From: Salegentibacter tibetensis
GTDB lineage: Bacteria; Bacteroidota; Bacteroidia; Flavobacteriales; Flavobacteriaceae
Length of the DNA: 64,000 nucleotides
Direction: 5' to 3'
NCBI RefSeq assembly: GCF_020164485.1
Contig: NZ_JAIQZA010000003.1
Span: forward strand, 1 to 64,000
Positions 20,010 to 37,612 of this stretch are shown here, in pieces. Every line of letters begins with the position of its first letter. Position 1 is the stretch's first letter. A program made the position numbers and the translations under genes. The notes beneath the pieces were generated by a model, which ran no database searches, was not told where the DNA came from, and was given only the letters and a program-made list of their open reading frames with translations.

Positions 20010-21386
20010 TTAATTTCTTGGGAAAACCCAAATATCATCATCAAGTAAATGTCCACCTTGAGCTTGAATTGCAGCTTCATAGGCGTCAGGGTTTGATTGT
20101 CTTTCAGAAATAGGGTATAATAACCTTCTTGGTATAATTCCAGAAGGGTTATTACCATTTTCACCATCAGGATTAGGTGTTAAATTTGGAAATCCTGTGC
20201 GTCTATATCCATTCCATACCTGCATTGGTGATTGGCCATACAGAGCTTTATATTTTTCATTAATTATGGTTTCTATGCTAGCGTCTCCAATACTGGAAAT
20301 ATACTCGTTTGCATTTGCGGTGGTTACACCTAAATAGTTCATATTCGCCATAATAGCTTCCTCGAGGGCTTCAGAGCCATCCCCGCCAGTTCTTTCCAAT
20401 GCTTCTGCTTCAATAAATTTAACTTCAGCATAGCTAATTACCGGAGAAGGACTGTCTAATTTGCTCCAGAATAGATTAGGATCGGCTGCATCAAAGTAAA
20501 GAAAAGTTCCTCCCTCACTCTCGGTCATATACAAAGGCATTCTTGGATCACCCATCATAACATCTGCGAAATATTCTGCAACAACCATGGTATTAGGTCT
20601 TTGGAAACCAAACAATGCTAATGGATGACCTCCATTCTGAGTATTCTCAAAAAAGAAATCCAGTTGTTCTGCATTACCGTTTGTGGCCATATCCAATTCA
20701 TCCAATGCCATTTGTGCAGCGTTAGGATTAACACTGGTTTGTTGAATATAAAAGCGTGCCTTTAAAGCATGGGCAGCACTTATCCATTGCTGGTTGCTTC
20801 CTCCAATTAGATCGCCCTGGATACCTGCAGGATCTTCGGCATTCAAATCTGTAATTGCTTCTGATAATAATGTTTGTAAAACACCATAAAGTTCTTCCTG
20901 ATCATCATATTTAGGTGAAAGGTTTTCCTCTCCCTCGAAAGCTTCAGAATATGGTACATCTCCCCAGGCATTTGTTGCTAATCCTAAATTAATGGCCATA
21001 TATATTTTGGCCAGACCCCTTGTGTTAGGGGCGTCTCGATTTGTGGCTCTTTCAATAATATCATCAGCGTCTCTCATAGCACCGGTGTAGAGGCCAAAAT
21101 CCCAGGGGTTGTTTGTATCGTTTTCACCAATTATATAAGATGTATATGCAAGCTGTTGTGCATCTACTCCTTCCCATTGTTGGGTTAGAATCCCGGCATA
21201 ACGGCCCAGAACAGCACCAATATTTCTATGGGTTTGAGTTTGCATTGCCGGTACTATGGCTACCAGTTCCACATTATCGCCCCCTGGGCGCGTGGGATCC
21301 TGGTTGGTAGAGTGATAGTCACACGAGCTCAAAATTGCAATAAATATTATCGCTAATTTTGATATGTTGTTTTTAATATATTTCAT
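20010..21386 (-). CDS. SusD/RagB-like nutrient-binding outer-membrane lipoprotein (locus 1)
   Basis: 458 residues. Lipoprotein signal with LSSC (Cys22). TPR-like helical fold with MQTQTHRNIGAVLGRYAGIL, then AKIYMAINLGLATNAWGDVPYSEAF, a segment typical of the SusD-like_2 group, and a C-terminal KYKALYGQSPMQVWNGYRRT. It caps the SusC partner, which lies 11 bases upstream, and binds an unknown ligand at the cell surface. Many members of this group bind peptides or sugars, so substrate is open. Confidence 0.93.
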   Translation of the reverse strand: MKYIKNNISKLAIIFIAILSSCDYHSTNQDPTRPGGDNVELVAIVPAMQTQTHRNIGAVLGRYAGILTQQWEGVDAQQLAYTSYIIGENDTNNPWDFGLYTGAMRDADDIIERATNRDAPNTRGLAKIYMAINLGLATNAWGDVPYSEAFEGEENLSPKYDDQEELYGVLQTLLSEAITDLNAEDPAGIQGDLIGGSNQQWISAAHALKARFYIQQTSVNPNAAQMALDELDMATNGNAEQLDFFFENTQNGGHPLALFGFQRPNTMVVAEYFADVMMGDPRMPLYMTESEGGTFLYFDAADPNLFWSKLDSPSPVISYAEVKFIEAEALERTGGDGSEALEEAIMANMNYLGVTTANANEYISSIGDASIETIINEKYKALYGQSPMQVWNGYRRTGFPNLTPNPDGENGNNPSGIIPRRLLYPISERQSNPDAYEAAIQAQGGHLLDDDIWVFPRN

Positions 21387-21397
21387 GATAAAGCTTA

Positions 21398-24300
21398 TTA
21401 AAAGTTGAGTTTTACAGTTAACGCATAACTGCGAGTGTTGGGTTGGTTAAAGTAATCCAAACCTATACCGTTCGATGCGCCGGTTAAGTTGGTTTCAGGA
21501 TCAATACCAGGATAGTCGGTTATAAGGAATAAGTTCCTGCCCGCAAGAGTAAAAGATCCACCTGATAAAAACGTATTATCTAAAAGGCTTGAAGGTAATG
21601 CATACGAAATTGAAGCTTCCCTTAGTCTTACCCAGGAAGAGTCAAATACATAATCTTCTGAAACTCCTCCAAAACCATATCTTACCCATCTGTTGGCTCC
21701 CAGGCCATCGGCGGGATCTGCCAATGCCACCTCGGTAGTATTAGACTCACCGGTATTTTCATTTACCCCGTCAAATACGAAATCTGTAACATCTCTTTGA
21801 TCTGCAGTAGTTTGGGAAACACCAAAATAATCGATAATACCACAGGTTCCACACCATACGTCACCACCTTGTCTTACATCTAAAAGAGCAGAGACGCTGA
21901 AGTTTTTATAAGATAGTGAGTTACGAATCCCCATAGTCCAATCTGGAATAGGGTTTCCTATAACCGCATCTTCCGAATCAACAATAGGAAAACCATTGTC
22001 TCCAATTAAAACCTCTCCCTGTTCATTTCTTTGAAATCTAGACCCGAATATTGCGCCATAAGGTTCACCTGCAATCACCCTACTGGAGGTGGAAGTAAAT
22101 CCGGCTAATAGAATAGACTCTACATCTGGGGCGAGTTCTAAGACATCGTTCGTAAAAGTAGTCCAGTTTACGTCTATATTCCAATTGAAATCATCGGTTC
22201 TTACGGGTTGGAAACCGGCAGATACTTCCCATCCTTTGTTCTCTATAACTCCGGCGTTTAGAACCCTTGCGGTATATCCAGTTACTGCAGGCTGGTCAAC
22301 CTGAATAATTTGGTCCTCTGTAGTTTTGTTGTAATAAGCTACATCAAGTTTTATTCTGGAACTAAAGAAATTAAATTCAGCTCCTACTTCGTATTCTGTA
22401 GTAACCTCTGGTCTAATATTGGCATTACCAAGTAAAGAAGATCTTTCAAAAGCTACAGTAGAAAAGATAGGAAACTGGTTAGCATCTATAAAGCCATCAC
22501 CTCCGGCTGCTGCTGCACCATAATAAGTAAGCGTAGAAAATGTCGGAGCATCGTTACCGGTTTTACCATAAGATCCTCTTAATTTACCATAGTTCATTAT
22601 TCCGCTGTCCCATAATTCTGTAAAAACAAAACTGGAACCAAAGCTATAGGACTGGAAAGAGTTATTATCTTCTGGAAGTGTTGAAGACCAGTCGTTTCTA
22701 AATGTACCGTTTATAAAGAAGGTGTCATCATAAGAAAAACGTGCATCTGCAAGTACAGCATCAAGCTGTCTTCTATCTATAGTTTCTGATACCGCCTGGC
22801 TTGCTGTATTAGAAATAACGAAAAAGCCTGGTATAGTCATTCCAAGTCCGGTAACCTGGTCAAACTGGGTTTGAGTTTTATACCCATCGTAACCAAGAAC
22901 ATCATTAAATGACCATTTATCGCTTATTTCTTTTTCTGTTAGAAACAAAAGCTGTGTATTGATGTCTTCGTTAAATATAGTTTGGTTAAAAACCGATCCT
23001 TGTGGGTTTCCGGCAGAATTTACATCTATTCCCTGTTTTCTTTTATCGGCATATTGATCGTATCCTAAAGTACCCTGAATGGTAGCCCATTCAAATGGCT
23101 TGTATTCAAAAGATAGTCTACCAATAAAACGTTTTACATCATCAAAGGAAGGGTTTTGAGTTACCGTCCAGTATGGATTGTCATAAATCCCGGCTCGGTA
23201 ACTTCTTTGTCTTCCATCAGGCAATAGGTAGGTAGCCGGTGTATTGGCTGCCTCTCTTCCAGATAGGCCATTTCCGTTATCGAAAGTGGGTGTTGAGCGA
23301 AGTAATCCAAGCATAACACCAGAAACGTTCGATCCACGCTGTACTCTACGACCACCAGAATTAACGAAATTTGCACTCCCAGATATTTCAAAGTTATCAG
23401 TTAAAGCAGCACTTATATCACTTCTAAAAGATGTTCGGTTGAATTGTTCCTGTGGAGCAACACCAGTTTGATCCAGGTGGGACCCCGAAATGTAATATTT
23501 CACATCTTCGCTTCCTCCCCGAACAGAAACATTATTGTCCTGAAGAATACCGGTTGTAAAAAAATCATAGGAATCATATGCATTAGCAGGTTGACCATTA
23601 CCCTCACCGGCAGGCACTAATCTACCATTACGATCGTAAGGATAGGAAGTGTCTCCGTCAAACTCAAGGGAAGAAATTCTTGGTCCCCAGCTAAAACCTT
23701 CGAAGGTTTCAGGTCCTCTGTAAGTAGCAACACCACCAACAGGCCGTCCCTGAGCGAATTGACTTTGTAATTCTGGCAACTTATTAACTTCACTAAATTG
23801 AAGCGTGGAGGAAACCGAAACCACTGGTGCTCCTGTTTTACCCTTTTTGGTTGTAATAAGTACAACCCCGTTAGCAGCTCTAAGCCCGTAGAGGGTTTGA
23901 GCAGCAGTACCTTTTAAAATCTCGATAGATTCAATATCTGCTTGAGCGATGTCGACAGCCCTGTTCGAGGAATCTACTCCACCAACTCCATTACCAGCAG
24001 AAGAATTGTCAATTGGAACACCATCTATTACAAATAGGGGTGCATTAGATCTGTTAATAGAAGTGTTTCCTCTAATACGAATATTAGATGAAGCACCTAC
24101 AGAACCTGAAGAGCTTACCACACTTACTCCGGCAGCTTTAGATGATAGGGAATTAACCAAATTAGTTTCCCCAGTGTTTTCAATATCATCTGCAGTTACC
24201 GTTTCGGCGGCATAGGTTAATGACCGTGGGTTTGCTTTAATACCTAATGCTGTTACTACAACTTCGTCAAGTTGTGCTGCATCAGTTCCCATGGTGATCT

Positions 24301-24577
24301 CCACTTCAGTGGTTTCATTAGTAATGGGGAATTCTGTGGTTTCCATACCAACAAAGGAGAGAACGAGTATATCTCCTGTTTCAGCATTAATGGTAAACTC
24401 ACCATCAAAATTAGTTTGGGTACCCGTGTTGGTTCCCTTAATTAAAACGGTAACACCTGGTAGGGGTAGCCCGTCCTCATCGATTACCGTACCGGTAATC
24501 GTTCGTTCTTGTGCAAAGGTGATTTGCACAGCCAACACTAATAATAGTGTTAAAATACTACTAAACTTTGTTCTCAT
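21398..24577 (-). CDS. SusC/RagA family TonB-dependent transporter (locus 1)
   Basis: 1059 residues. Signal peptide MRTKFSSILTLLLVLAVQ ending FAQE. A carboxypeptidase regulatory-like domain (about 25-105: ITGTVIDEDGLPLPGVTVLI and EFTINAETGDILVLSFVGM) is followed by a TonB-box-like EVVVTALGIK, the plug (about 115-235: VSSSGSVGASSNIRIRG, PLFVIDGVPID, IEILKGTAAQTLYG) and a 22-strand barrel ending in KLNF. Imports a bulky substrate with the SusD encoded downstream. Its 5' end and promoter are mirrored by the pseudogene at 36.6-36.8 kb. Confidence 0.96.
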   Translation of the reverse strand: MRTKFSSILTLLLVLAVQITFAQERTITGTVIDEDGLPLPGVTVLIKGTNTGTQTNFDGEFTINAETGDILVLSFVGMETTEFPITNETTEVEITMGTDAAQLDEVVVTALGIKANPRSLTYAAETVTADDIENTGETNLVNSLSSKAAGVSVVSSSGSVGASSNIRIRGNTSINRSNAPLFVIDGVPIDNSSAGNGVGGVDSSNRAVDIAQADIESIEILKGTAAQTLYGLRAANGVVLITTKKGKTGAPVVSVSSTLQFSEVNKLPELQSQFAQGRPVGGVATYRGPETFEGFSWGPRISSLEFDGDTSYPYDRNGRLVPAGEGNGQPANAYDSYDFFTTGILQDNNVSVRGGSEDVKYYISGSHLDQTGVAPQEQFNRTSFRSDISAALTDNFEISGSANFVNSGGRRVQRGSNVSGVMLGLLRSTPTFDNGNGLSGREAANTPATYLLPDGRQRSYRAGIYDNPYWTVTQNPSFDDVKRFIGRLSFEYKPFEWATIQGTLGYDQYADKRKQGIDVNSAGNPQGSVFNQTIFNEDINTQLLFLTEKEISDKWSFNDVLGYDGYKTQTQFDQVTGLGMTIPGFFVISNTASQAVSETIDRRQLDAVLADARFSYDDTFFINGTFRNDWSSTLPEDNNSFQSYSFGSSFVFTELWDSGIMNYGKLRGSYGKTGNDAPTFSTLTYYGAAAAGGDGFIDANQFPIFSTVAFERSSLLGNANIRPEVTTEYEVGAEFNFFSSRIKLDVAYYNKTTEDQIIQVDQPAVTGYTARVLNAGVIENKGWEVSAGFQPVRTDDFNWNIDVNWTTFTNDVLELAPDVESILLAGFTSTSSRVIAGEPYGAIFGSRFQRNEQGEVLIGDNGFPIVDSEDAVIGNPIPDWTMGIRNSLSYKNFSVSALLDVRQGGDVWCGTCGIIDYFGVSQTTADQRDVTDFVFDGVNENTGESNTTEVALADPADGLGANRWVRYGFGGVSEDYVFDSSWVRLREASISYALPSSLLDNTFLSGGSFTLAGRNLFLITDYPGIDPETNLTGASNGIGLDYFNQPNTRSYALTVKLNF

Positions 24578-25014
24578 TTTTACTTTTGTTTGAATTAGCC
24601 AGTTCCAAAATTGCTAATAAATGGTTAGCTGAACAAGCAATAAGTTTTAAATAAATTCTTGAATGTTAACTAAAAGTTAATCCTGAATATTAATAATCTG
24701 AAATACAGAAATTTATAAAAATCATTTATTTTGTTAAAAAATAGGGAGGGTTTTGATAAATCCCAATAAGCTAATGATTAGAACTAAAAATTGAAATTAT
24801 TTTGATTTCTTGAGGGGTATTTGAGGAAATAAAAAAGGGAATCAAAATTTTTAGTGCCTTTCTGTTAATAAAAATAAATCTTAAGATTGAGGAAAAATAT
24901 CATCAACTAATAGATGGCTATACTATACTTTGAGGACCTTGTAAGTGTCATAGATTTGCTACATTTCATTTTACTAATATGCCTAGCTATGTGTAAATAA
25001 TTAAAACTTTAACT
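24578..25014. other. Intergenic region upstream of susC locus 1
   Basis: 437 AT-rich bases. The part nearest susC holds the promoter at 24606-24636. Further out there is no open frame of note and no clear terminator for the small secreted protein gene; an imperfect inverted pair (TTTTGATTTC near 24800, GAATCAAAA near 24840) is the only other structure seen. Confidence 0.6.
24606..24636 (-). promoter_or_regulatory. Putative Bacteroidota promoter of susCD locus 1
   Basis: On the minus strand TTG, 20 bases, then CAATTTTG, one mismatch from the TAnnTTTG -7 element, 28 bases upstream of the susC ATG. The same spacing and near-identical boxes (TTG-N20-CACTTTTG) precede the susC remnant at 36811-36841, so the element looks conserved by descent and functional. 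Confidence 0.55.
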
Positions 25015-25764
25015 CTAGTTTAAAAATTGAATAGCTTTAATTAGATCAATTTCGTTTTTAATTTTTAGATTGTTGTCTTTTATAAAAACTTCTAGCTCCT
25101 TTTTCTTCGCTGTATCAACCATCTTTAAGAGCTTTCTGTTTTTTAAAATTATTTCTTCAATTTTATTAACACCTTTTTTTTGAAGATAGTATTCTGTGAA
25201 ATGCGTAAATCTATTGGAAGTTGCTTTTACAAATGAATTTTGGGCCGGCTGGGCTTCTGTGAATTTGACCTTGGTTCTTTTAAAAAGATCATATATTTCA
25301 CCATCATAGAGTTTTGTTAGGTAGCCATTTAGTGTATTGTCACTTTTATCGATGAAGGTCTTAAAAGAAAGACGTTTTCCCCCTCCCAATTCAATACTTA
25401 TTGCTTTGTCGGTATGCAGTGCGTTTATAGTTTCTTCCTCCAACGGATTTTTTTTGATTTCTATTTCTTCATTATAGGCATTATAACGATAGTAAACCTG
25501 TCCCTGGTTTTCGTCCTCGTAGAATAGAAGGGCTGGTTTAAAATTATTATCAGTATATGGCGACCCTATAAAATCATCTGAGATATACCGGTTAGATTTA
25601 TTTTTATTTAATGAAGAACTTAGCATTGATATAGCTGCTCCATTTACATTCTGGGCTCCGGCACCCGACAAATTGGTTGCGGGTTGCCCGGCGTATTGCG
25701 CCGATCCGGCAAAAGGCATGATTACCAGAGCACATATTAATAATATTATGGTTTTCATAATCAT
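25015..25764 (-). CDS. Small secreted hypothetical protein downstream of the VCBS lipoprotein
   Basis: 249 residues. Signal peptide with cleavage near GSAQY, a Gly/Asn/Ala-rich start, then a mixed alpha/beta body with YEDENQGQVYYRYNAYNEEI and a lysine-rich helical C-terminus (YLQKKGVNKIEEIILKNRK). No family recognised. It begins directly after the VCBS gene's stop, so the two are co-transcribed; a second ATG two codons in is an equally good start. Confidence 0.75.
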   Translation of the reverse strand: MIMKTIILLICALVIMPFAGSAQYAGQPATNLSGAGAQNVNGAAISMLSSSLNKNKSNRYISDDFIGSPYTDNNFKPALLFYEDENQGQVYYRYNAYNEEIEIKKNPLEEETINALHTDKAISIELGGGKRLSFKTFIDKSDNTLNGYLTKLYDGEIYDLFKRTKVKFTEAQPAQNSFVKATSNRFTHFTEYYLQKKGVNKIEEIILKNRKLLKMVDTAKKKELEVFIKDNNLKIKNEIDLIKAIQFLN

Positions 25765-28700
25765 TTAATTTATTAAATATGTTTTCAAAGTTCCATTGTT
25801 GGATCCGGTAATGATTAATTTTTTATCGTTTAGCTGGATTAGCTCAATATCTTTTATATTTCCTTTAAGATATAATCCCGATTCTTCATAAGTAGTTGGA
25901 TCGTAACCATCTTTACCATTGGAGAGAAGAACTTGCCCTGAGATAGCATCCAGCCGGGGAGTTTCTACTTCAGTTTCATAAATATTCCCCGCTAAAACAG
26001 CATCCTCGAAACCGTCATTATTCAAGTCTATAAAAATAGTTTCAAAAACCGGAAACATTTGCGCTTCAATAGGCAGAATACGGATATCAAACTCGTTATT
26101 CCCTTTATTGATCAATAGTATGGAATTAAATTGTGTTGCTTCAGCTTTATATGAGTCCTCAAGGGAATCACCAAAAATATCTTTAAGATTGGCATTTGCG
26201 AAATCTGAATATGTAGAAAATTTATCGTTGAGAAAAGGCATTTGTTGTGATGAACATTCCTTTCCTCTAACCGGGACATATTCATTAAAATATTGTTTAC
26301 CCAGCACAATATCGTTAGTTCCATTTCCATCGAAATCGTTGGCAAATATTTTTAGTGGTTTTTTTAAAGAAGCTTTGAATTTAATATTCAACCCAACATT
26401 TCCTAAAATGTAATCTTTAAGGCCGTCATTGTTAATATCTGTTTCAGCTATAGAGTACCACCAGCCTTTTTGTTCAGATAAATTCTCATTGGACAAAAGC
26501 TGGAATTTGCCATTCTTATTTTCAAAAAATCCAATTCCGGTCCATTCACCCACCACTATAATGTCTTCCCATCCATCGTTATTAAAATCTGTGGTCACGA
26601 TGCTATTTACTATTCCAAAATCTTGTAAATCGGGGGCCTTTTCTTTTGTGACATCTTTAAGTTCACCATTCACATTCTCGTAAACAACAGAGGGACTAAA
26701 CCTGGGATAGGCCTGGGGGATTATACGGTTGCCTATAATTATATCGTTGTCTCCATCTTTATCCATATCCAGAACAGTAATACTTTTTCCGCTATAAGGA
26801 TTAGAATTAAGGGCATTGCTTTCATGACGGGTAAATTGTTCATTGCCATTGTTGATATACAATCTGTCAATATAGCGTGGATCACCACTTTCAAATTCAT
26901 TCCCTCCGCTTACCACGAATAAATCCTGATCACCATCACCGTCAAAGTCAAAAAAGACTGATTCCATATCTTCATAAATGCTATCTTTTAAAAAGTCTTC
27001 CACAATTATTTTTCTAAACTTTTCACCATCCTGTACATAAAGCTCCCCAGGTTGTCCGGCCGCTCCCCCTATGTAGAAATCAGTTTTTCCATCATTGTTG
27101 ATATCTGCTTTTGAGATATATGGTCCGAAAGTGGATTGCTTATATGGGAGAAGGACTTCAGTTTCAAAATCATCATAATGGTTTTCCCGATGTTGATAAG
27201 ATATATTTAAAGATTCAGAGGGAATCTCCTGAAATAAAACAGGTGTTTTTTTCTCCGTTAATTCTTGTTTTAAAGTCTCAGTTTTTGCAAAGGCTATAGT
27301 TTGATTTGCCTCGATGTTATGATGAATATTTTCAGTTCCATCTATCCACTTTATTTTAATACTATCTATCTTTTCATATTTGCCAATACCAAAATGAGCA
27401 ATATTTTGTTGTGAAGACCTGTATCCCCTAATATTTTTCAGCTCTATAAATTGATTTTTACCATCATAAAAAAGGCTAATCTTAGGAAAAAACTGTGAAT
27501 CTTGTCCCTCTATTTTTACCTTTAAAAAATTACCCAAATTTCTGTCGCTAGAGAGATTTTTATATAGAAAAGCTTCCTGGTCTATATTATTCACCAGGAT
27601 ATCCAGGTCTCCATCATTATCCAGATCGGCTACTGCTGCACCGTTACTGAACGAATAATCTGTTAACCCCCATTGAGTAGCTATGTCTTCAAATTCAAGG
27701 TTGCCCTTGTTTTTATACAGGATGTTTCTTAATTTTTCAGAAGGCATACTTTGATAAAGTTGAGATTTTACTCCCAGTGGGACATTCCTTCCATATTTTC
27801 TTTTTGCTTCAAGGACTCTTTGCTGTAGATCATTATCCAGAGCATAGCGTCTGTAACCGTTGGTGATAAATATATCCCTCCTTTCGTTCAAATCAAAATC
27901 ATACATCAGTACAGACCAGCTCCAATCTGTATTGGCAGTATTTGAGAGTTGAGCAATATTGCTGAAATTGTTGTTTCCCTGATTCAATTGAAAAGAATTA
28001 TACATATATTGATGATGGAAATCTAAAGTATCGGTTAGATAACTAAACCTTTTTGTATCCATAGAAGCCATTAAAGTTTTTGACCGAACATGATCCCTTG
28101 CGGCCATATCTAATACAAAAATGTCCTGAAGCCCGTCATTATTTATGTCGGCGATATCCAATCCCATTCCGTAGAAAGAAATTTGACTGGTATATTCTTT
28201 TATTTTATCTGAAAAAGTGCCATCCATATTGTTTATAAATAGCGCATCTGGTATGTAATAATCACTGGCAATATAGATATCCAGCCAACCATCATTATTT
28301 ATATCGCTAACACCAAGCCCAAGTCCGAAAATAGGTCTTTCCAGTCCGGCTTCTTTGGTGACATTTTTAAATTTTCCATTATCGTTTCTGTAAAGATGAG
28401 AGCTATTAAAGTATTTACTCTCCTCGTCGCGGGCAGCCAAATTATAGAGATTGTAGGGATCTACCCCATAAAGTTCATTTTCATTCATTACCAGACAGTC
28501 CAGATCACCATCCTTGTCATAATCAAAAAATACAGCATGAGTGCTTATGCCCATATCGGCTAAGCCATAGTCTGCGGCTTTTTCTGTAAATGTATTATCT
28601 TTATTGTTTATAAAAAGCAAGTTTTTTCGTTGTAATCTTTGATTGGGACCCCCTTGCGAAATGTAAATGTCCTGCCAACCATCCTGATTGATATCTACTA

Positions 28701-29109
28701 TAGTTACAGCATTAGACCATACTTTACCTACGTTAATTCCTGCTGAATTTGAGATGTCTTCAAATTTGAGATCTCCTTTATTAAGGTATAGTTTATTCTC
28801 CACCTGGTTGCCGCAAAAGAAAACATCGGGTAGCCCGTCATTATTAAAATCCCCAATACCAACACCAGCGCCATTATAGAAATAATCAAAATCGAAAAGG
28901 TTTGCGATGCCAGATAAATCTTCTTTTATATTGTTGGAAAATTTAATATTACTAACACTGCCCGGAACTTTCTCGAAGATTTTATTTTCTGGCTTGCTTA
29001 AAGCATCTTCACTTGCTTTTGTTGCGATTTCATCTTTTTTATCAATCTTATTATCACAAGAAAAAAATAGAAATGAGGATAAAATCAATATTGAAAACTT
29101 GTAGCGCAT
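25765..29109 (-). CDS. Large VCBS/FG-GAP repeat lipoprotein with ASPIC/UnbV domain
   Basis: 1114 residues. Lipobox FFSC (Cys18). At least a dozen FG-GAP/VCBS repeats with Ca-binding loops of the form D-x-N-x-D-G (DFNNDGLPDVFF, DINQDGWQDIYI, DLDNDGDLDILV), forming beta-propellers at about 60-530 and 660-1110. An ASPIC/UnbV segment lies between (about 550-620: YRSSQQNIAHFGIGKY, IKIKWIDGTENI). Surface lipoproteins of this type often accompany SusCD pairs in marine Bacteroidota and may bind ligand or stabilise complexes; the role is inferred. Starts 4 bases after the arylsulfotransferase-like gene's stop. Confidence 0.92.
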   Translation of the reverse strand: MRYKFSILILSSFLFFSCDNKIDKKDEIATKASEDALSKPENKIFEKVPGSVSNIKFSNNIKEDLSGIANLFDFDYFYNGAGVGIGDFNNDGLPDVFFCGNQVENKLYLNKGDLKFEDISNSAGINVGKVWSNAVTIVDINQDGWQDIYISQGGPNQRLQRKNLLFINNKDNTFTEKAADYGLADMGISTHAVFFDYDKDGDLDCLVMNENELYGVDPYNLYNLAARDEESKYFNSSHLYRNDNGKFKNVTKEAGLERPIFGLGLGVSDINNDGWLDIYIASDYYIPDALFINNMDGTFSDKIKEYTSQISFYGMGLDIADINNDGLQDIFVLDMAARDHVRSKTLMASMDTKRFSYLTDTLDFHHQYMYNSFQLNQGNNNFSNIAQLSNTANTDWSWSVLMYDFDLNERRDIFITNGYRRYALDNDLQQRVLEAKRKYGRNVPLGVKSQLYQSMPSEKLRNILYKNKGNLEFEDIATQWGLTDYSFSNGAAVADLDNDGDLDILVNNIDQEAFLYKNLSSDRNLGNFLKVKIEGQDSQFFPKISLFYDGKNQFIELKNIRGYRSSQQNIAHFGIGKYEKIDSIKIKWIDGTENIHHNIEANQTIAFAKTETLKQELTEKKTPVLFQEIPSESLNISYQHRENHYDDFETEVLLPYKQSTFGPYISKADINNDGKTDFYIGGAAGQPGELYVQDGEKFRKIIVEDFLKDSIYEDMESVFFDFDGDGDQDLFVVSGGNEFESGDPRYIDRLYINNGNEQFTRHESNALNSNPYSGKSITVLDMDKDGDNDIIIGNRIIPQAYPRFSPSVVYENVNGELKDVTKEKAPDLQDFGIVNSIVTTDFNNDGWEDIIVVGEWTGIGFFENKNGKFQLLSNENLSEQKGWWYSIAETDINNDGLKDYILGNVGLNIKFKASLKKPLKIFANDFDGNGTNDIVLGKQYFNEYVPVRGKECSSQQMPFLNDKFSTYSDFANANLKDIFGDSLEDSYKAEATQFNSILLINKGNNEFDIRILPIEAQMFPVFETIFIDLNNDGFEDAVLAGNIYETEVETPRLDAISGQVLLSNGKDGYDPTTYEESGLYLKGNIKDIELIQLNDKKLIITGSNNGTLKTYLIN

Positions 29110-29113: not shown

Positions 29114-30484
29114 TTAAAGTTCTAATAATTTTAATTCTGGAGCATTCTGTGGATAATGATAAATTCTCCAGTAGAATCCATCACCTTTAAATTTCCAAAC
29201 TACATTTCCGCTGTTAGTTACCTCCCAACCACCATGGTCCCCTTCGGTAATTAAAGTGTTTCCGTTAGGAAGACGAACACCACCGGAGACTTTAGGTGAA
29301 AAAAGATTTGTAGAAGTAAAACTCCATAAAACATCAAGTTCATTGTTTTGATTGGATGCCAGGTCATATTCAGCTGGTAATTTTAACTCATAGAGAATTG
29401 ACTGTTCAGCGGTAATATTGTTGTTGAAGACCAAAATTGAGCCGGTGTCTTCTCCGTTCAATAAATTGGGGAAATGATTTCTATCAAACATTCTTGTGCC
29501 TTCAGGATTTTGGTATGCTTCAGGGTTTCCAAACCTATACACGAGATCTCCGCCTTTATTAAAATTACCGCCTGATGAATCTTTAGCTTCAGCTGTAGTT
29601 GTGCTGTGGTCAATTACCCAAACCTCACTATAAAAGTTGATACTCAGAAAAATTAGATCCTTATCAGGATCATAGGCAATACCATTGCCATGCATTATAT
29701 CACCTTTTTCATCTTTTACGTAGTTGATGTCAATTAATTCAGGATGGTCAGCAATAACACCATAATTTGCCTTTTCTGAATCAAAATCCTGAACTATATG
29801 GTCCCAGGAACGCCATTCCCAAACAATTGCATTAGTTGCAGGGTCTATTTCTATGATCTTCTCGGGGAAAATATCGGTATTGGTATCTACACCAGACTCT
29901 TTTGCTTCCTGGATGGGGATCTTTTCCCATACCATAGCCAGTATATTTCCATTAGGAAGCATTTCAATATCATGATGGAGATTGTAATCTTCTGTAGAGT
30001 ATGGGAATTCCCATAAGATATTACTGTCTTTATCCAATAACTGGATAAGCCCACCAAAGCCGCCAAAATTTATAATGGCATCTTCATCCATTAACAGAGT
30101 AAGAAGGTTTCCATCAGGTAATAGGGTAGAATCGTTTCCTATTCCTGCAACTAAATCCCATTCATGAAGAATATCCAGGTCATAGTTCATAAGGAATACC
30201 CTATTATTGCCTGCATCATTAACGAGTAAATATCCCCCATTGACCAGGGAAGGGGAGAACACTTCAATTTTACCAGCTTTTTCATATTCTGAGCTTCCCT
30301 CATTTCCTCCTCCTTCTTGTCCTTCCTGTCCTTCCTCTTTATCAACAGGTTCTTCCGGAGTTGAATTATTCTCGTCTGGTTCAGAAAATAATTCATTATT
30401 ATCACTGGAACAACCGGCAATCATAAATATTACAAGAAAGAGCACTGCCGAAGTTAATGTTCTTATTTTTAATTTTTTATCCAT
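29114..30484 (-). CDS. Arylsulfotransferase (ASST)-like lipoprotein
   Basis: 456 residues. Lipobox IAGC (Cys25), then a Glu/Gly/Gln-rich linker (about 27-68). The catalytic region is a propeller of repeats such as YLLVNDAGNNRVFLMNYD, LHHDIEMLPNGNILAMVWEK, IMHGNGIAYDPDKDLIFLS, and a final RLPNGNTLITEGDHGGWEV. This matches the aryl-sulfate sulfotransferase family, whose classical members move sulfate between phenols without PAPS. Whether this lipoprotein is an enzyme or only a propeller relative is open. First gene of a three-gene operon. Confidence 0.82.
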   Translation of the reverse strand: MDKKLKIRTLTSAVLFLVIFMIAGCSSDNNELFSEPDENNSTPEEPVDKEEGQEGQEGGGNEGSSEYEKAGKIEVFSPSLVNGGYLLVNDAGNNRVFLMNYDLDILHEWDLVAGIGNDSTLLPDGNLLTLLMDEDAIINFGGFGGLIQLLDKDSNILWEFPYSTEDYNLHHDIEMLPNGNILAMVWEKIPIQEAKESGVDTNTDIFPEKIIEIDPATNAIVWEWRSWDHIVQDFDSEKANYGVIADHPELIDINYVKDEKGDIMHGNGIAYDPDKDLIFLSINFYSEVWVIDHSTTTAEAKDSSGGNFNKGGDLVYRFGNPEAYQNPEGTRMFDRNHFPNLLNGEDTGSILVFNNNITAEQSILYELKLPAEYDLASNQNNELDVLWSFTSTNLFSPKVSGGVRLPNGNTLITEGDHGGWEVTNSGNVVWKFKGDGFYWRIYHYPQNAPELKLLEL

Positions 30485-30615: not shown

Positions 30616-31500
30616 TTATAAATTGTTAGGACAGTAATCCAGTAATTGCAAACCTGCTGTTGGAGAAGGTCCTAAATCCAGAACCTCGTTTCCGTTAGCG
30701 GAGGTAACCTGGAATGTAACCTCACTATCCCAGTCTCCAGAAACGTAATTGATAGCTATTTCAGAAGTTCCTTCTGGAACATTAAATGTTCTGGTGCCTG
30801 AAGCTCCATCTTCCAGAGTATAGCTGGTTTCCGTTCCATCTATGGTAACCACTAAAGCGGCACCATTCCAACCATCTCCATAAGAATCCTGAAGTTCTAT
30901 TGTCCATTCTCCAGCTGTAGGTGGAGAAGGCGCACAAACTATAGGGGCAGTATATTGGAAAGGAGACCTGAAGAAAGATCCTGTTAAAGTACCGGTGTTC
31001 TGATCGAAAGAAAATCTTCTTCCATCTTCAAGAACAAGCTCAAATCTTATCCTGAATTCATCGCCCCCATCTATTGCGCTAATGGGAACTCCTGTAGAGC
31101 TTGCCAATTCAGTTGCCGGGATAGAAAAATCTAATCTTGGCAACCCGAATTCACCAGTAAAAAACTCTGAACGTGGAATTGTAGTAAATAGGTTATCCTC
31201 GGTATCTAAATCGGTACCATCAGTATTTGTATTATCTACGAATCTGGTGTATACTTCTACGGATTCTACGAGAGCACCCATTTCGCTGTCCTGAACTTCA
31301 AGGGTTATATCAAATTCACCCTGAAGTGCATTTTCGCCTACCAGTAATTCATCAGCGCGAATTTCAATTGTCCTTAAAATAGCGCCTCTGGTGGTGTTTT
31401 CTGTGATATCATCTATCAGTGCATCTCCATCGTCACAGCTCTGCATAAACAGGCCGCAGAACAAAAATAAAGGGAGATAAATTTTTATATGATCTTTCAT
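30616..31500 (-). CDS. Hypothetical SusE-position lipoprotein
   Basis: 294 residues. Lipobox MQSC (Cys22). The N-terminal beta domain (about 35-190: RGAILRTIEIRADELLVGE, GGDEFRIRFELVLEDGRRF) is followed by a small C-terminal module with WTIELQDSYGDGWNGAALVV and a late Cys, a pattern found in Bacteroidota surface proteins. As third gene after susC and susD it takes the place of SusE/SusF-type ligand binders, which this role assignment follows; no sequence family is certain. Confidence 0.78.
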   Translation of the reverse strand: MKDHIKIYLPLFLFCGLFMQSCDDGDALIDDITENTTRGAILRTIEIRADELLVGENALQGEFDITLEVQDSEMGALVESVEVYTRFVDNTNTDGTDLDTEDNLFTTIPRSEFFTGEFGLPRLDFSIPATELASSTGVPISAIDGGDEFRIRFELVLEDGRRFSFDQNTGTLTGSFFRSPFQYTAPIVCAPSPPTAGEWTIELQDSYGDGWNGAALVVTIDGTETSYTLEDGASGTRTFNVPEGTSEIAINYVSGDWDSEVTFQVTSANGNEVLDLGPSPTAGLQLLDYCPNNL

Positions 31501-31517
31501 GTTTCTAATTTTTATTT

Positions 31518-33179
31518 TTAGTTAGCTGGAGGAAAAGCTGGACTTGAAGGATTTGTATCCCAAAATACCTGTTCTGTTAAACCTGACTTTTGATCCAGAT
31601 TAGGATTTGTTACAACCTCTGTTTGCGGGTACAGGAATGTCCTTGGGAAAGGGCCCGGATCTACTGACCAGTTAGGTGTTAAAGTAGTAGGGAATCCGGT
31701 TCGTCGGTAAAAGTTATAGGCGTGGGTTCCATCACCATAAAGCGTCACAAAGTACTGCCTTGCAAAAATGTTCCATTTTTCATCTCCTGAAGCAGCTTGT
31801 AGGGCTGAAACCTGATCGTTAATGAAATCTTCAACTTCATCACTATTTGGTGCGATTGAAAGATCGGCATCGCCATCAAGCTCACCAAAGCTTTGTACTT
31901 TTTCAATTGATTTTTCAAGAGCAGTTCTGAATAAGTCAGGATCGGCATCCTGCATTTCAGATCTCCAGAAATATACGTAAGAAGAAAGTATTATTGGTTC
32001 AATCCCGGCACCAGCGCCTCCTTCACCTAAACCAACGGTGCCAAAACTATTGTCGTCAAATTTTCCTCCTGCAGGATAGACACCTACAGCGGTTCGACGG
32101 AAATTATCTGGAGGGGTACCTTCGTTGTTACCGTGAGATCTTCCCCAATACCCATTAGGCACTGCGCAATAAGTGAAGCCACCATCCAGAAAATGTTGAG
32201 GCGGAACTGCAAGAGAGCAGGCCAAAGTTTCTTCATTAGGGTCTGCATCAGCGCCAGGTGTTGCACTAACCTGTCGATAAAAATAATATCTTATTCTTGG
32301 GTCATCATTGTTTAACATTAATTCCATTAACCAGTTAGACCTATAGAGATCAGAACCGCTGGGAGTGTAGTCTAATACATAGTCCTGGTGTCTGGTATCT
32401 GGCTGTAATTCTCTTGAACCAAAATTAAACTGAAAATCATCTGCAATATCATCTATATAGTTCCCACCATTTATTACTGCATCGAATCCCTGGGAATTAC
32501 CTGTTGTAACATAAGCTCGCAAACGTAAGGTGTTTATCAATTTTAGCCATTTACCAGAATCACCCTGGTAAAAGAAATCTGTTGCTCCCTGTGGCGAAGG
32601 AGATTCAGAAAAGAGTGATTCTGCTTCATCCAACAAAGCAAGTGCGCCATCATATACTGCTCTACCTTCATCAAGTTGTGGGGCTGGAAATTCATTTGGG
32701 TTACCAGCTTCAGATAAAACTGCTTTACCTAAGTAGTCTACCAATATCATTAGCATGTGGGCTTTTAAAGTCTTACCCATGGCGATATGGAAGCTGTAGT
32801 CTACCTCAGATTGTTCATCAAATTCCTTCAATGCTTCTACGTTAGTGTAGATACCTACACTAATAGGTCTTCCTATAAGATTGGTGCCGCTACTATAGGT
32901 TCTTTCCCATACACCATCCAGCGTACTACCTGGGTAATTGTTGAAGTAATCCCGTCCAAACATATAGTCAATCCTCGTAAGCTCAGATCCCAAATCGTTT
33001 ACTGAAGTCATATTACTGGCGTATGCCAACTGTATGGAATTAAGTAGCAAATTGGGATCGGCTTGATCTGAAGCCAAATCATTAGGACTGACGCGCAAGT
33101 CCATATCTACTGTTTCACAAGAATTGAATACACCTAAAAGGATAGACAATATTGTGAAAAATTTAATTGTTGTTTTCAT
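31518..33179 (-). CDS. SusD/RagB-like nutrient-binding lipoprotein (locus 2)
   Basis: 553 residues. Lipobox VFNSC (Cys21). SusD-like_2 traits: LLLNSIQLAYASNMTSVND, YSFHIAMGKTLKAHMLMILV, SGKWLKLINTLRLRAYV, and a C-terminal FARQYFVTLYGDGTHAYNFY. It is about 95 residues longer than the locus 1 SusD, mainly through a Gly-rich insert near residues 300-380. Works with the SusC encoded 26 bases upstream; ligand unknown. Confidence 0.93.
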   Translation of the reverse strand: MKTTIKFFTILSILLGVFNSCETVDMDLRVSPNDLASDQADPNLLLNSIQLAYASNMTSVNDLGSELTRIDYMFGRDYFNNYPGSTLDGVWERTYSSGTNLIGRPISVGIYTNVEALKEFDEQSEVDYSFHIAMGKTLKAHMLMILVDYLGKAVLSEAGNPNEFPAPQLDEGRAVYDGALALLDEAESLFSESPSPQGATDFFYQGDSGKWLKLINTLRLRAYVTTGNSQGFDAVINGGNYIDDIADDFQFNFGSRELQPDTRHQDYVLDYTPSGSDLYRSNWLMELMLNNDDPRIRYYFYRQVSATPGADADPNEETLACSLAVPPQHFLDGGFTYCAVPNGYWGRSHGNNEGTPPDNFRRTAVGVYPAGGKFDDNSFGTVGLGEGGAGAGIEPIILSSYVYFWRSEMQDADPDLFRTALEKSIEKVQSFGELDGDADLSIAPNSDEVEDFINDQVSALQAASGDEKWNIFARQYFVTLYGDGTHAYNFYRRTGFPTTLTPNWSVDPGPFPRTFLYPQTEVVTNPNLDQKSGLTEQVFWDTNPSSPAFPPAN

Positions 33180-33205
33180 ATTTAAAATTTTTTCTACAAT
33201 TTGTA

Positions 33206-36200
33206 TTAAAAGGTTGCTTTAAGGCTCAGTCCAATTCTACGGGCACTGGGACCATTAAGGAAGTCAAACCCTTGTGAATTCCCAATTCCAGCTCCCTGTA
33301 CGTTTGGATCAAAATTAGCGCCATCAGGAGTGTTGTAGGCATTGTACCACAGGTTGAATCCTTGTGCTGTGATAGATAGAGATCCAAATGGTGACTGTCC
33401 AAGAGCATCAGATGAGAATGTATAACCCAGAGATACCTCCTGTAGGCGAACAACTGAAGCGTCATATATCTTGGCCTCTGCCGGTCCAAATAATATGTTA
33501 TTAAAGTAATAAGTTGAGTTGTTAATCTGAAGATCATTTGGTTCACCTGTACTTTCTCTTATTCCCGGTAAAATATAGGTGTTTTCTCTATCAAGGGTTT
33601 CTGTAATAAGTCCTCTACCTAAAAGAGTAGCAATGGTGCTCGACATGATGTCACCACCTTTTATGTGAGATACCAGGAAACTAAAGTTCCAGTTTTTGTA
33701 CTGGATGTTATTACTTAGGTTCATTGTGTAATCAGGGTTGGGATCACCTATTACTGGAACATTTCCATCATTATCAGCTTCAGTAATAATATAGTCACCA
33801 CCTTCATTTACTAGGAGCTCTCCGTTTTCATTACGATCAAACGCCGTTCCAACAATGGCTCCCAAAGGCTGTCCTTCTATAGCCGCGTTACCTCCAATAA
33901 AGAGCTGTGTACTACCTGCGTAAATGATGATGTCCTGTTCTTGTTGAGTCACAACAGGATTATAAGTGGCAAAATTAACATTTGTGTTCCAGTTAAAATT
34001 ATCTCTTCTAATCCAATTGATGCCTAGATCGGCTTCAACTCCATCTCCTCTGATTTCACCAACATTACTTTGTGTGAATGTAAAACCTGTAGAAGGGGAT
34101 AGCGGTTCATTAACAATAAGGTTTTCAGTTGTCCTTTCAAACCAGGTGAAATCTAAAGATACACGATTATCAAAAAACCTTGATTCAAATCCTAATTCAA
34201 TTTCAGATAACAATTCGGGTTTTAAATCTGGATTTGCTCTAAAGCCAGCTACCTGGTTCGTAGTAACCTCACCTCCTTCTCCAAATACCTGGGTATTTTG
34301 TTCAACAATACCTACAGTAGGGTAGCCCGTTGGGAAGGTTGCAGATTGCCCTAAACCTCCTCTCAGTTTCAAGAAATTGAGGCCGTTGGTTGATCTTAAG
34401 CCCTCAAAAGCCTGGGTTGGAAGAAAGGATACACTGGCACTAGGATAAGATTGGCTGTTGTTTTCAGAGGTAAGGTTTGAAACCCAATCTGTTCTCGTAG
34501 AAGCCGTTAAGAATAGCATGTTGTCGTAGTCAAGGGTAACCTGGCCAAGTACACCTGCAATATTCCTTTTTTCAGAAAATTGGATTGGAGCCTGGTTTCT
34601 GTAGTTAAAATGTCTTTGTACACCATATACTAATTGACCGGTACTGGCAACCCCCTGCTGATCGTAATCGGTCAAACGGGAAGTGGCGCCCACGTTAAAT
34701 GTCAAGCCTAATTTATCTGAAAGATCATACTCTCCATTTAAAGCCAGGTAATGGTCCCAAATGAGATTGTTGTTATCATATGTATTAAGATAACCGAAGA
34801 TTGCATTTTGGAAATTTACTCCTCCTTTATTAGAATGCTGTGTGTTTCTTTCAGTATAAAAATCCAGACCAGCCCTGTAGGTTGCGTTTAAATTGTCATT
34901 AAACTCATAGGTTAAAGAAGTATTCCAAAAAACCCTATTCGTTAATTGGGAATTTTTAATGTTAGCTGCAATCCATCTTGGATTAATAATATCATTACCA
35001 TTACGATAATAAACACTGGAGCCGTCTATAGGGTTTTGAAAGGGTAATCCCATTAAATCAACACTTCGCGGGGTAAAAAAGACATTCGCGAAAAGTGATA
35101 ACCCAAGAGTACCGTTACCCCTACTTGCTGCAATAGGAGGAGAAGTATAATCTGTCCTGGAATAATTCATAGACCCAGAAATTGTAAACTTATTAGAAAG
35201 TTTAGAACTCCCTCCAATAGACATGGTTAGTCTCTCTAATGAATTGCCGGGAACAAAACTCTCATCATCCAAATGGCCCATATTCACGTTGTAATTAGAG
35301 TTTCCGTCTTTTGAAGAGCCGTTTATATTTACTGAGGTTGTGATTATTCTTCCATCCTGGAAGAAATTCTCTACAGAGTTATACGGCCTCCATTCATATC
35401 GTGCGCCCTGTAATTCAGGGAAAGCTTCTCTGGTACTCGCTACAGAAGTCGTTGAGTAAGGATGTTCCAGGGTTCCATTATCATCAATAGCAGGTTGACC
35501 TCCCCATCCTGATACTCCTTCTCTATCAAAACTTGGTCCCCAGTTGCTAAAGAACCAGCCAAAAGATTGATCAAATCCATTTCCATATTGATTTTGGTAA
35601 TCTGGCATAGAGGCCATTTGATTTACAAAATATGATTGACTTACGGAAATTTCAGATTTTTTGGCAACGCCCTCCTGAGCCCCTGCTTTAGTGGTGATTA
35701 AGATCACCCCATTCTTTCCTTGAGATCCGTAAAGTGTAGAGGCAGCAAGACCTTTCAAAACTTCGATATTTGCGATGTTATTAGGGTCAAGATCCAGGAA
35801 ACGCGAAGACCCTGTGTTTCCTGAAACGAAGTCTCCTGATGCGTTGGTGTCACTACTAAATGGAACTCCATCTACTATAAATAGTGCCTGGTTACTACCG
35901 CTGAAAGAACTTAATCCCCTAATTACAACGTTAGTACCAGATCCAGACATTCCCCCTGCAGCTGTAATACTAACCCCGGAGGCCTTCCCTGAAAGAACCC
36001 TGGCAACATCACCATCTGCTCTTTGTTCGAGTTGCTCAGAATCAACAGAAGATACTGCGTACCCCAAAGCTTTTTTCTCTCTTTTAATTCCCTGTGCTGT
36101 AACCACAACTTCTTCAAGTTGAGCAGAATCAGCTTCCATCACGACATCAATTATGTCGACATCACCAACTGAATATTCGACGGTTTGCAAACCAACAAAG

Positions 36201-36421
36201 GAGAATAGAAGAATGTCTCCTTGATTTGCCTGAATAGAATAGTTACCATCAAAATCAGTTTGTACTCCGGTTGAAGTTCCTTGCACTACAATGTTTACAC
36301 CTGGTAGCGGAAGTCCGGAATTATCTGTCACTGTACCAGTAATTGTTTGCTCCTGCGCAAAAATTGTATGCGCAAGAAAAACAAAAATAAGCGTAAAAAT
36401 ACGAGTTAATTTTTGTTTCAT
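33206..36421 (-). CDS. SusC/RagA family TonB-dependent transporter (locus 2)
   Basis: 1071 residues. Signal peptide ending IFAQE, regulatory-like domain (ITGTVTDNSGLPLPGVNIVV), conserved EVVVTAQGIKREKKALGYAV, plug with NVVIRGLSSFSGSNQALFIV and IEVLKGLAASTLYGSQG, then a barrel ending SLKATF. Similar in build to the locus 1 transporter but clearly diverged outside conserved motifs. Its promoter is not obvious: a TACTTTTT box lies close to the ATG with no clear TTG. Confidence 0.96.
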   Translation of the reverse strand: MKQKLTRIFTLIFVFLAHTIFAQEQTITGTVTDNSGLPLPGVNIVVQGTSTGVQTDFDGNYSIQANQGDILLFSFVGLQTVEYSVGDVDIIDVVMEADSAQLEEVVVTAQGIKREKKALGYAVSSVDSEQLEQRADGDVARVLSGKASGVSITAAGGMSGSGTNVVIRGLSSFSGSNQALFIVDGVPFSSDTNASGDFVSGNTGSSRFLDLDPNNIANIEVLKGLAASTLYGSQGKNGVILITTKAGAQEGVAKKSEISVSQSYFVNQMASMPDYQNQYGNGFDQSFGWFFSNWGPSFDREGVSGWGGQPAIDDNGTLEHPYSTTSVASTREAFPELQGARYEWRPYNSVENFFQDGRIITTSVNINGSSKDGNSNYNVNMGHLDDESFVPGNSLERLTMSIGGSSKLSNKFTISGSMNYSRTDYTSPPIAASRGNGTLGLSLFANVFFTPRSVDLMGLPFQNPIDGSSVYYRNGNDIINPRWIAANIKNSQLTNRVFWNTSLTYEFNDNLNATYRAGLDFYTERNTQHSNKGGVNFQNAIFGYLNTYDNNNLIWDHYLALNGEYDLSDKLGLTFNVGATSRLTDYDQQGVASTGQLVYGVQRHFNYRNQAPIQFSEKRNIAGVLGQVTLDYDNMLFLTASTRTDWVSNLTSENNSQSYPSASVSFLPTQAFEGLRSTNGLNFLKLRGGLGQSATFPTGYPTVGIVEQNTQVFGEGGEVTTNQVAGFRANPDLKPELLSEIELGFESRFFDNRVSLDFTWFERTTENLIVNEPLSPSTGFTFTQSNVGEIRGDGVEADLGINWIRRDNFNWNTNVNFATYNPVVTQQEQDIIIYAGSTQLFIGGNAAIEGQPLGAIVGTAFDRNENGELLVNEGGDYIITEADNDGNVPVIGDPNPDYTMNLSNNIQYKNWNFSFLVSHIKGGDIMSSTIATLLGRGLITETLDRENTYILPGIRESTGEPNDLQINNSTYYFNNILFGPAEAKIYDASVVRLQEVSLGYTFSSDALGQSPFGSLSITAQGFNLWYNAYNTPDGANFDPNVQGAGIGNSQGFDFLNGPSARRIGLSLKATF

Positions 36422-36596
36422 TTTTGGTTTATTTGAATTAGTTTATTAAAAAGTAAAAAAAATGTTAATAGCATATAATGCACTTTATAAATCATTGGTG
36501 ATTATAATTTTTTGCATACAATAATTAACATTCAAAGTTGAGTTTATCAGTCTTTAATACGATAAAAACCAGAAAAATTTTCTGAAAACCTAAAGA

Positions 36597-36781
36597 ATTT
36601 AATTTCCATCAAAAGTCGGTTTGTTTTACCAGTATAGGGTTCTATTAACTAAAACAGTTGCCTGTTAGGGGTAATCTGCTTCATCGGTTGCTATGCCGGT
36701 AATCGTTTGTTTTCGTGTTAAGTTAATTTGCACAGCTAACACCAATAAAAGTGTTATAATACTGCTAAATTTTGTTCTCAT
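36597..36781 (-). pseudogene. Decayed 5' end of a third susC gene
   Basis: From an ATG at 36781 the minus strand reads MRTKFSSIITLLLVLAVQ, matching the locus 1 SusC signal peptide at 17 of 18 positions. It continues KQTITGIATDEADYP and stops at 36665. Beyond the stop, DNA similarity to the locus 1 gene continues through the GVTVLIKGTNTG and FDGEF codons to about 36597, with indels and stops, and then ends. No plug or barrel sequence follows; the intact locus 2 susC starts 175 bases further on. Confidence 0.85.
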
Positions 36782-36810
36782 TATTTGATTTTGTTTGAAT
36801 TAGCCAATAC

Positions 36811-36841
36811 CAAAAGTGCTAATAAATAGTTAATAAAACAA
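36811..36841 (-). promoter_or_regulatory. Relict promoter of the susC pseudogene
   Basis: TTG-N20-CACTTTTG on the minus strand, 30 bases upstream of the remnant's ATG, with the same spacing and flanks (CTAATAAAT, TTTGAATTAGCCA on the plus strand) as the locus 1 susC promoter. It could still drive transcription toward locus 2. Confidence 0.5.
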
Positions 36842-37130
36842 AAATTTTTTTTTAAAAGTTAACAATAGTATCATCACATTAACAATATTGACTGATGAAT
36901 CGCAAGAATTTAGTAGTTATTGGTGAACATTTGAATGTTAAAATAATGCGAATTTAGTATTTTCTTTTGTTTGGATTATGGGTAAAGTGTAATGTAGGTG
37001 TGAGGTTATCTAATTTTTAAGCTATGTCTTAGTTGGTTCTAACATTATGATATAACTAGTGTTTTTATGAAGATAATTCTGGATATTAAATTTAGTTGCA
37101 TCATCCTTCTGAAAATTAATCCATTATAGT

Positions 37131-37160
37131 TTGATAAATTTGTTTTTATTTCTACATTTG
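37131..37160 (+). promoter_or_regulatory. Promoter of the str operon (rpsL)
   Basis: TTG (37131-37133), 19 bases, then TACATTTG (37153-37160): an exact match to the Bacteroidota consensus TTG-N17/23-TAnnTTTG. It lies 54 bases upstream of the rpsL ATG, leaving a leader of roughly 47 bases. Confidence 0.8.
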
Positions 37161-37214
37161 CAAACCCTAAAAAACAGGGGATTAAATTTAAATAATAATT
37201 AGGTAAAAGAAATT

Positions 37215-37589
37215 ATGCCAACAATTTCACAATTAGTACGAAAAGGAAGAGCCCAGATGACCAAGAAGAGTAAATCGGCTGCTTTAGATTCGTGCCCTCA
37301 AAGAAGAGGAGTATGCACACGTGTGTATACTACTACACCTAAGAAACCAAACTCGGCTATGCGTAAAGTAGCTAGGGTAAGGTTGACTAACGGAAAAGAA
37401 GTTAACGCTTATATTCCAGGTGAGGGACACAATCTACAAGAGCACTCGATAGTATTGGTCAGAGGTGGAAGGGTAAAAGATTTGCCAGGTGTGAGATACC
37501 ACATTGTTCGCGGTGCATTAGATACTGCGGGTGTTGAAGGTAGAAGCCAGCGTAGGTCTAAATACGGAGCCAAACGCCCTAAAAAGTAA
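37215..37589 (+). CDS. rpsL: 30S ribosomal protein uS12
   Basis: 124 residues, normal length. It carries the decoding-centre loop [13 protein letters not shown] (Lys43/Lys44) and [20 protein letters not shown], both in the form seen in streptomycin-sensitive bacteria, with no known resistance change visible. First gene of the supercluster, driven by a consensus promoter. Two cysteines (27, 34) sit in the CPQRRGVC segment. Confidence 0.99.
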
Positions 37590-37612
37590 TTAAAAACTTT
37601 TAATGTAAAGAA

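Follow-up and report, generated by a model that had tools for sequence, protein, structure and literature searches.

SusC/SusD pairs decide what Bacteroidota import. In the window analysed here, the first 64,000 nucleotides of contig NZ_JAIQZA010000003.1 of Salegentibacter tibetensis, the interval between rpsL and rlmB holds two such pairs and, directly before one of them, the start of a further susC that breaks off after its opening codons. What is the front of a transporter gene, with promoter and leader, doing ahead of another, intact gene of the same kind, and what became of the gene that it once opened? A sequence-only reading had called it the relic of a third susC, promoter included, and that description survives here, for the fragment is a genus-resident 5' end at the usual distance from rpsL. 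Our fuller answer, whose parts taken jointly we hold to be true with a probability of about 0.7, is that 36600..36857 is what is left of the 5' end of a resident susC, that transporter modules would have been exchanged here by recombination, that the old promoter would now drive the neighbouring locus 2, and that the relic would form one arm of a repeat.

The relic and its place beside rpsL

The relic lies close to rpsL, at one end of an interval, hereafter the slot, that is closed at the other end by rlmB:

36600..36857, minus strand: relic, the decayed 5' end of the resident slot susC with promoter, leader and codons 1-61, recognised by DNA identity to the other genus genomes
36665..36781, minus strand: open frame that remains in the relic, 38 codons by translation
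37215..37589, plus strand: rpsL, near border of the slot (TIGR00981 above cut-off)
19164..19904, minus strand: rlmB, far border of the slot here and in relatives (TIGR00186 above cut-off)

Read from 36781 on the minus strand, the relic opens with MRTKFSSIITLLLVLAVQ, which differs by one residue from the N-terminus of susC1 (ATG at 24577), so that the near identity with the signal peptide of the locus 1 transporter first noticed at this place is real. Relic and susC1 front align as DNA over 227 bp at 78% identity, including about 50 bp 5' of the ATG, with a local score of 204, where 500 dinucleotide shuffles gave a mean of 23.6 and a maximum of 36. A search of its own 4.21 Mb genome with the relic DNA gives four matches at E <= 0.001, namely the relic itself, susC1 (78%) and two susC fronts of contig C129 (72% and 69%). 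Promoter and leader are common to relic and susC1 front, as had been proposed and as both the alignment and a position weight matrix (PWM) confirm. Homology to the resident genes of relatives reaches from 60-76 bp 5' of the ATG to nt +182 (36600) and takes in promoter, leader, signal peptide and half of an N-terminal CarboxypepD_reg-like domain; the decay of this homology had been described correctly, whereas its length past the 18-residue peptide is some 128 bp and not about 100. The frame meets a TAA after 38 codons and another stop later, with small insertions and deletions besides, and a resident SusC protein used as query retrieves the relic as 36596-36781 with three stops.

The fragment thus has the marks of a SusC pseudogene, the 5' relic of a TIGR04056-type gene: its DNA matches the beginning of an intact susC better than chance, its frame is broken and free of coding constraint, and relatives have an intact ortholog where it stands, with none elsewhere in its own genome. 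SusC fronts are alike genome-wide, a front search of the genome at hand giving six matches at E 1e-8, and one might ask whether convergent or generic likeness of signal peptides, without common origin, would account for the match. Such an account is extremely improbable, for the likeness is one of DNA that spans promoter and leader, exceeds every shuffle, and belongs to a sequence at the canonical distance from rpsL. Chance likeness of signal peptides is ruled out by the shuffle test and the genus-wide DNA matches. The relic also resembles susC1 far more than do unrelated SusC fronts of the genome, which disposes of the objection that the similarity might be no better than between unrelated signal peptides. 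The two susCs of C129, at about 7.6 and 13.2 kb, lie next to each other and have slot-like fronts (63-68% in protein); the slot promoter pattern described below has no match at either.

Position tells the same story as likeness. The relic DNA finds a susC front in each of the 14 other genus genomes at 71-81% identity, and its ATG stands 434 bp from rpsL. For the 13 relatives in which rpsL lies in the fetched region, the corresponding distance of the resident susC is 414-435 bp in ten, and in the remaining three another susC stands between the two. The search of sister genomes that the sequence-only reading had proposed thus finds the intact gene next to rpsL in ten relatives and as the second susC in three. 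In the 14th relative (G002), whose stretch is without rpsL, the resident susC adjoins rlmB. The rpsL-proximal part of the relic-side intergenic region matches residents and its middle part does not; the DNA 5' of the susC1 promoter matches neither the relic region nor residents. Searched against the whole genome, a resident SusC finds susC1 at 40%, with no full-length relative closer than that, and other susCs at no more than 46% over parts; a resident SusD has no match beyond 32%. With no resident body or susD in the genome and the relic at the canonical distance, it follows that the resident pair is gone and that the relic is its susC start. That the relic began as the 5' end of the slot susC resident in the genus is a supported conclusion.

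Foreign modules and the isolation of the relic

Between rlmB and the relic lie the genes of locus 1 and locus 2:

20010..21386, minus strand: susD1, partner of susC1 (Pfam SusD-like_2; 56% to a slot gene of G085)
21398..24577, minus strand: susC1, a chimera, codons 1 to about 57 of resident type and the remainder foreign (change point nt 173, range 158-176; identity profiles)
25015..25764, minus strand: hyp249, with which the foreign slot operon ends (no Pfam match; 58% to G136, where rlmB is next)
25765..29109, minus strand: FG-GAP / ASPIC-UnbV repeat protein (PF13517, PF07593; 65% to G136)
29114..30484, minus strand: arylsulfotransferase-like (ASST) gene (PF05935; 51% to G136)
30616..31500, minus strand: hyp294, a locus 2 operon gene (no Pfam match; 50% to G136, same order)
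31518..33179, minus strand: susD2 (Pfam SusD-like_2; 67% to G136)
33206..36421, minus strand: susC2, intact, its body akin to slot susCs of other genera (77% to the slot susC of G136)
36530..36551, minus strand: suggestive only, bases that may remain from the 3' end of a resident susC, with those after them perhaps from the start of a susD (86% to the last 22 nt of susC1)

Compared with ten close residents at near-invariant sites, susC1 differs at 8 of 156 up to nt 173 and then at 32 of 112 up to nt 330, and its codons 1-50 are 85-95% identical to theirs in DNA. Its body has relatives in the slots of G085 (60-61%) and G098 (55-57%), and further ones at 55% in G024, away from rpsL, and in G173, outside the survey. 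A resident SusC is 40% identical to susC1 over the whole length; by aligned segment, residents stand at 31-40% to susC1, one N-terminal segment at 76% being set aside. Only in their fronts are the lost resident gene and susC1 alike, and the proposed replacement of a locus 1-type susC calls for correction: the gene lost was not of that type, and susC1 is itself a chimera. The end of relic homology (+182) and the break in susC1 lie about 6-24 nt apart, at the TDFDGNY block.

Locus 2 has its counterpart in another genus, where G136 carries rpsL, six locus 2 orthologs in the same order (50-77%) and then rlmB. In the window, susC1-susD1 adjoin rlmB, and hyp249, ASPIC, ASST, hyp294, susD2 and susC2 follow towards rpsL. 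ASPIC genes occur in 9 of 23 slots with susC2-type operons (type 2) versus none of 74 others, and ASST genes in 12 of 23 versus 7 of 74.

Three routes remain by which the relic could have been cut loose: duplication of the front on either side of the insert, erosion within a tandem array, or a replacement that has one of its borders inside the resident gene. On the first, the front was copied in place as locus 2 entered, and relic and susC1 front would be sister direct repeats around it. Two front copies do flank locus 2, relic homology and susC1 front both end near the same codon, and over -62..165 the two share four derived states where 1.5 are expected (p 0.04; the p of 0.001 for -62..190 spans sites past the susC1 break, which is why the former is used). 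These shared changes weakly favour the duplication of a 5' end that had been among the original suggestions. The AU test, however, gives no preference (p 0.36 vs 0.64), the relic is no nearer to susC1 (75.5%) than to the ten close residents (75.5-78.4%), and a simple single-crossover insertion would not result in a susC2 that stands behind the relic complete and with a leader of its own. The front tree, of low support, does not tell duplication from replacement, and duplication in place is in our judgement a doubtful, though serious, candidate.

On the second route the foreign units came in on the rlmB side of the resident pair, after which the resident susC and susD lost their middles. Other slots carry two or three units, and the sequence at 36530-36551 resembles a susC 3' end with the next bases resembling a susD start (4 of 19 targets at p <0.02), which weakly favours erosion. 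The corrected support is just p 0.02-0.035, however, a profile of resident ends misses the place, and 755 of 1500 control windows also align across stop and susD start, so that the register adds nothing. For the wider stretch 36422-36600 short BLAST matches are all that was found, and in a broad alignment test three of 13 targets scored above all 100 shuffles. We hold array and erosion tentatively, at somewhat less than even odds. Maintenance of the relic by gene conversion from susC1 is unlikely, because between -60 and -20 the relic agrees better with the resident consensus, at 92%, than with susC1, at 80%; further on, the two are about equally near to it.

The promoter left in the relic

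Each of the two fronts retains a promoter, and that of the relic has the higher score:

36811..36841, minus strand: slot-type promoter of the relic, intact (PWM 37.1, 60th percentile of 92 training sites)
24606..24636, minus strand: slot-type promoter of susC1 (PWM 23.4, 22nd percentile; one of two pattern matches in the genome)

The PWM was trained on 92 first slot susCs from other genomes, and by its measure the conserved boxes of the relic stand at the family norm of a flavobacterial promoter. Upstream of susC2 the score is -1.6 (4th percentile), so that this gene itself is without a slot-type promoter. In 4.2 Mb there are just two instances of the pattern TTG-N6-TAAC-N5-ATTR-NN-A-N-TTTTG, one at the relic and one at susC1, and none of a reversed control. 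Across 120 family genomes it has 67 matches in 60 genomes and the control has none; 57 of the matches lie within 20 kb of rpsL, seven do not, and three are in genomes without a located rpsL. The exact pattern is missing from 60 of the 120 family genomes and from 5 of 15 genus genomes. At 80 named loci, which partly overlap with the training species of the PWM, a slot promoter scoring above 15 is found in 27 of 34 with rpsL or rlmB versus 3 of 45 scored others; at 13 named loci without rpsL or rlmB the match begins off the start codon, so that a promoter could be missed.

The first units of the slots have the box nAnnTTTG in 70 of 93 cases and TAnnTTTG at that spacing in none; the latter is described as the usual box (PMC9723704). 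The spacer has a conserved TTAAC, seen in promoters of the class of 24606-24636 and 36811-36841. Slot promoters are possibly a special class.

Among 125 slot susCs (127 units minus G115_1, which has no usable start, and G128_2, which has a wrong one), 104 have an own-promoter score above 15 and ten score 5 or less; start positions and alignments were assigned by a script. A slot promoter displaced 110-800 nt upstream is found at susC2 only, where it is the relic's promoter; susC2 is one of the ten low scorers, and the other nine have no displaced slot promoter. Were the two features independent, a displaced promoter would land on a promoterless gene with a chance of about 8% (10/125).

Decay within the relic is uneven. 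Of the near-invariant resident sites, 10 of 122 are mismatched as far as +58 and 33 of 105 beyond it (permutation p 0.0006, or 0.002 without gaps), and by codon position the mismatches amount to 6/40, 9/41 and 9/35, as against 2/49, 0/52 and 5/45 in susC1. Coding constraint has gone from the relic, and the promoter is undecayed. The first 19 codons are kept as well as the promoter, which a pure promoter role leaves unexplained. Because the neighbouring susC2 is without a slot-type promoter, we infer that locus 2 is probably transcribed today from the relic's promoter. Another kind of promoter could serve susC2, slot type and sigma-70 being those scanned; the sigma-70 scan gave nothing above shuffles, with one minus-strand site before susC2. 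Directly after the relic lies a weak AU-rich hairpin with a T run (z -1.1 vs shuffles), which could weaken read-through, and between relic and susC2 this weak hairpin is the only terminator candidate, a further scan listing plus-strand sites alone. Known RNA elements have no match in 24000-37700 at gathering scores.

It may be objected that a dead remnant of the resident susC needs no function at all, its promoter having been kept by chance or through recent age. The broken frame and the missing coding constraint suit this view, as does the similar orphan front of G074, whose promoter score is weak (7.0) and which is followed by a hairpin that looks terminator-like by eye. Uneven decay suits it badly, and so does a promoter at the family norm that outscores that of the intact susC1; we think an inert pseudogene the less likely account. 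A relic whose promoter still fires is the reading that we carry forward.

A proposed exchange of bodies in the slot, and known systems

Is the arrangement beside rpsL a single accident or one instance of a habit? The survey, in a collection with one genome per species, comprised 80 of 113 genomes with an rpsL match, 14 genus loci, three family loci chosen for their susC matches and the window's own locus, 98 in all, with rpsL located in 97. A susC pointing away from rpsL stands in 76 of the 80 surveyed family loci (fetched stretch up to about 19 kb), and in 93 of 97 once the own locus, 13 genus loci and the three chosen loci are included. The four family loci without such a susC are G087, G110 (stretch just 2.9 kb), G130 and G052 (an intact susC on the other strand). 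The distance from rpsL in the 76 loci is within 1.5 kb in 21, 1.5-3 kb in 51 and greater in four. In G066 (L125), whose spacing is of the 1.5-3 kb kind seen in 51 of the 80, rpsL and the slot susC are separated by a gene of 564 residues (1223-2917, plus strand), whose product seems to resemble an outer membrane protein of BamA type.

An rlmB match was found in 86 of the 98 fetched stretches, and the susC bodies fall into 38 clusters at 50%; the borders are constant and the modules between them divergent, as in rag-like multi-allelic exchange of SusC/SusD. The 93 first slot susCs, compared in the 3,321 pairs with enough aligned border protein, average 68% identity in fronts and 31% in bodies. 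In these pairs, which are not independent and for which no significance was computed, fronts resemble each other as the border genes do (partial correlation 0.49) and depend hardly at all on the body (0.12); bodies in turn hardly track the border genes (0.14). Exact shared DNA runs of at least 20 nt between susCs of different genomes with bodies below 35% fall in codons 1-60 in 1,351 of 1,424 cases. Fronts of different units within a genome are on average more alike than fronts across genomes (0.72 vs 0.67; 0 of 5,000 permutations reached that), and of 37 within-genome pairs 25 are more alike than their mean to others, two equal and ten less, the window's own susC1 and susC2 being among the last. 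Constraint could explain conserved fronts, but not sharp breaks. One such break, at about codon 82, is seen in the slot of G105 (L135), where two susC units some 6.3 kb apart have bodies 93% identical in protein and fronts 66% identical in DNA; at the DNA level codons 91-300 are 87-100% identical, with 97 or 100 in most bins, codons 1-80 reach 57-80%, and what lies upstream is unrelated. The pair records a recent exchange of front or body within one genome.

Stranded fronts are rarer. A scan of the 98 slot loci for orphan fronts found, besides the window's own relic, one clear second case and also picked up G115. The clear case, G074 (L085, oriented 16593-16718, minus strand), is an orphan susC front of 47 codons at a distance of 1976 bp from rpsL; some 440 bp beyond it an intact susC follows. 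G115 (L094, oriented 16656-16841, minus strand) has a slot susC with a single in-frame TAA after codon 66 and an open frame afterwards, which could be a pseudogene or a sequencing error. Such relics thus arise elsewhere, yet are uncommon.

In the explanation that we prefer, modules would enter the slot by homologous recombination at the conserved front and the slot borders, the resident susC would have eroded after its displacement, and its promoter would still fire, now starting transcription of locus 2. With about 12.2 kb between them, relic and susC1 front form direct repeats that may serve as a recombination substrate; recombination between them would remove locus 2 and set susC1 at the standard distance from rpsL. 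The suggestion that such relics could seed swaps of transporter N-termini fits the family-wide pattern.

Generalised, and with rather less confidence than we place in the relic itself, the rpsL-rlmB interval of Flavobacteriaceae may be a dedicated expression slot: a lineage-kept cassette of slot promoter, TAATTCAAA leader, signal peptide and the first 60 or so codons (about 82 in one instance), to which interchangeable SusC bodies with SusD and cargo would be joined by homologous recombination within the cassette, orphan fronts being debris, spare promoters and repeat arms. If true, a slot beside the ribosomal operon would explain how uptake can change while expression and export signals are kept. 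The relic would be physical evidence of one transporter exchange, and the idea predicts promoter use, breakpoints near codon 60 and excision between front copies.

The slot may be set beside known systems. Shufflon-type inversions of SusC/SusD clusters in Bacteroides fragilis (Tsr0667), in which a site-specific DNA invertase acts, resemble it in the effect of recombination on such clusters. There, recombination alters the outer membrane proteins that are made (PMC4747536). The slot differs in that its front copies are direct repeats, and an inverted-repeat switch is unsupported: of 19 inverted pairs listed (70-94% complementary) none pairs the two fronts. Among the slot genes those with a Pfam match include no recombinase; hyp249 and hyp294 have no Pfam match.

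Among the matches listed in the open-licence PMC literature, judged by titles and the starts of abstracts, we found no description of an rpsL-linked SusC slot. Fjoh_0403-0405 of Flavobacterium johnsoniae, a highly abundant SUS complex of unknown function (PMC12611786), is alike as an abundant SusC/SusD complex in Flavobacteriaceae, and is a lead only.

A further comparison is the rag locus of Porphyromonas gingivalis, where RagA/RagB occur as four divergent alleles among strains and the N-terminus of RagA (signal peptide and CarbopepD_reg_2) is highly conserved (PMC11817032, PMC5266723); the passages of these two sources that we draw on mention no front relic of the slot kind. Slot and rag are alike in the SusC/SusD-type pair, the divergent alleles and the conserved N-terminus. 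For rag the variation is chiefly one between strains within a species, with RagA types at about 58-97% relative to W83 as reference, whereas in the slot the bodies at one place are on average about 31% identical across a family, units stack, and the front of a displaced gene has been left behind.
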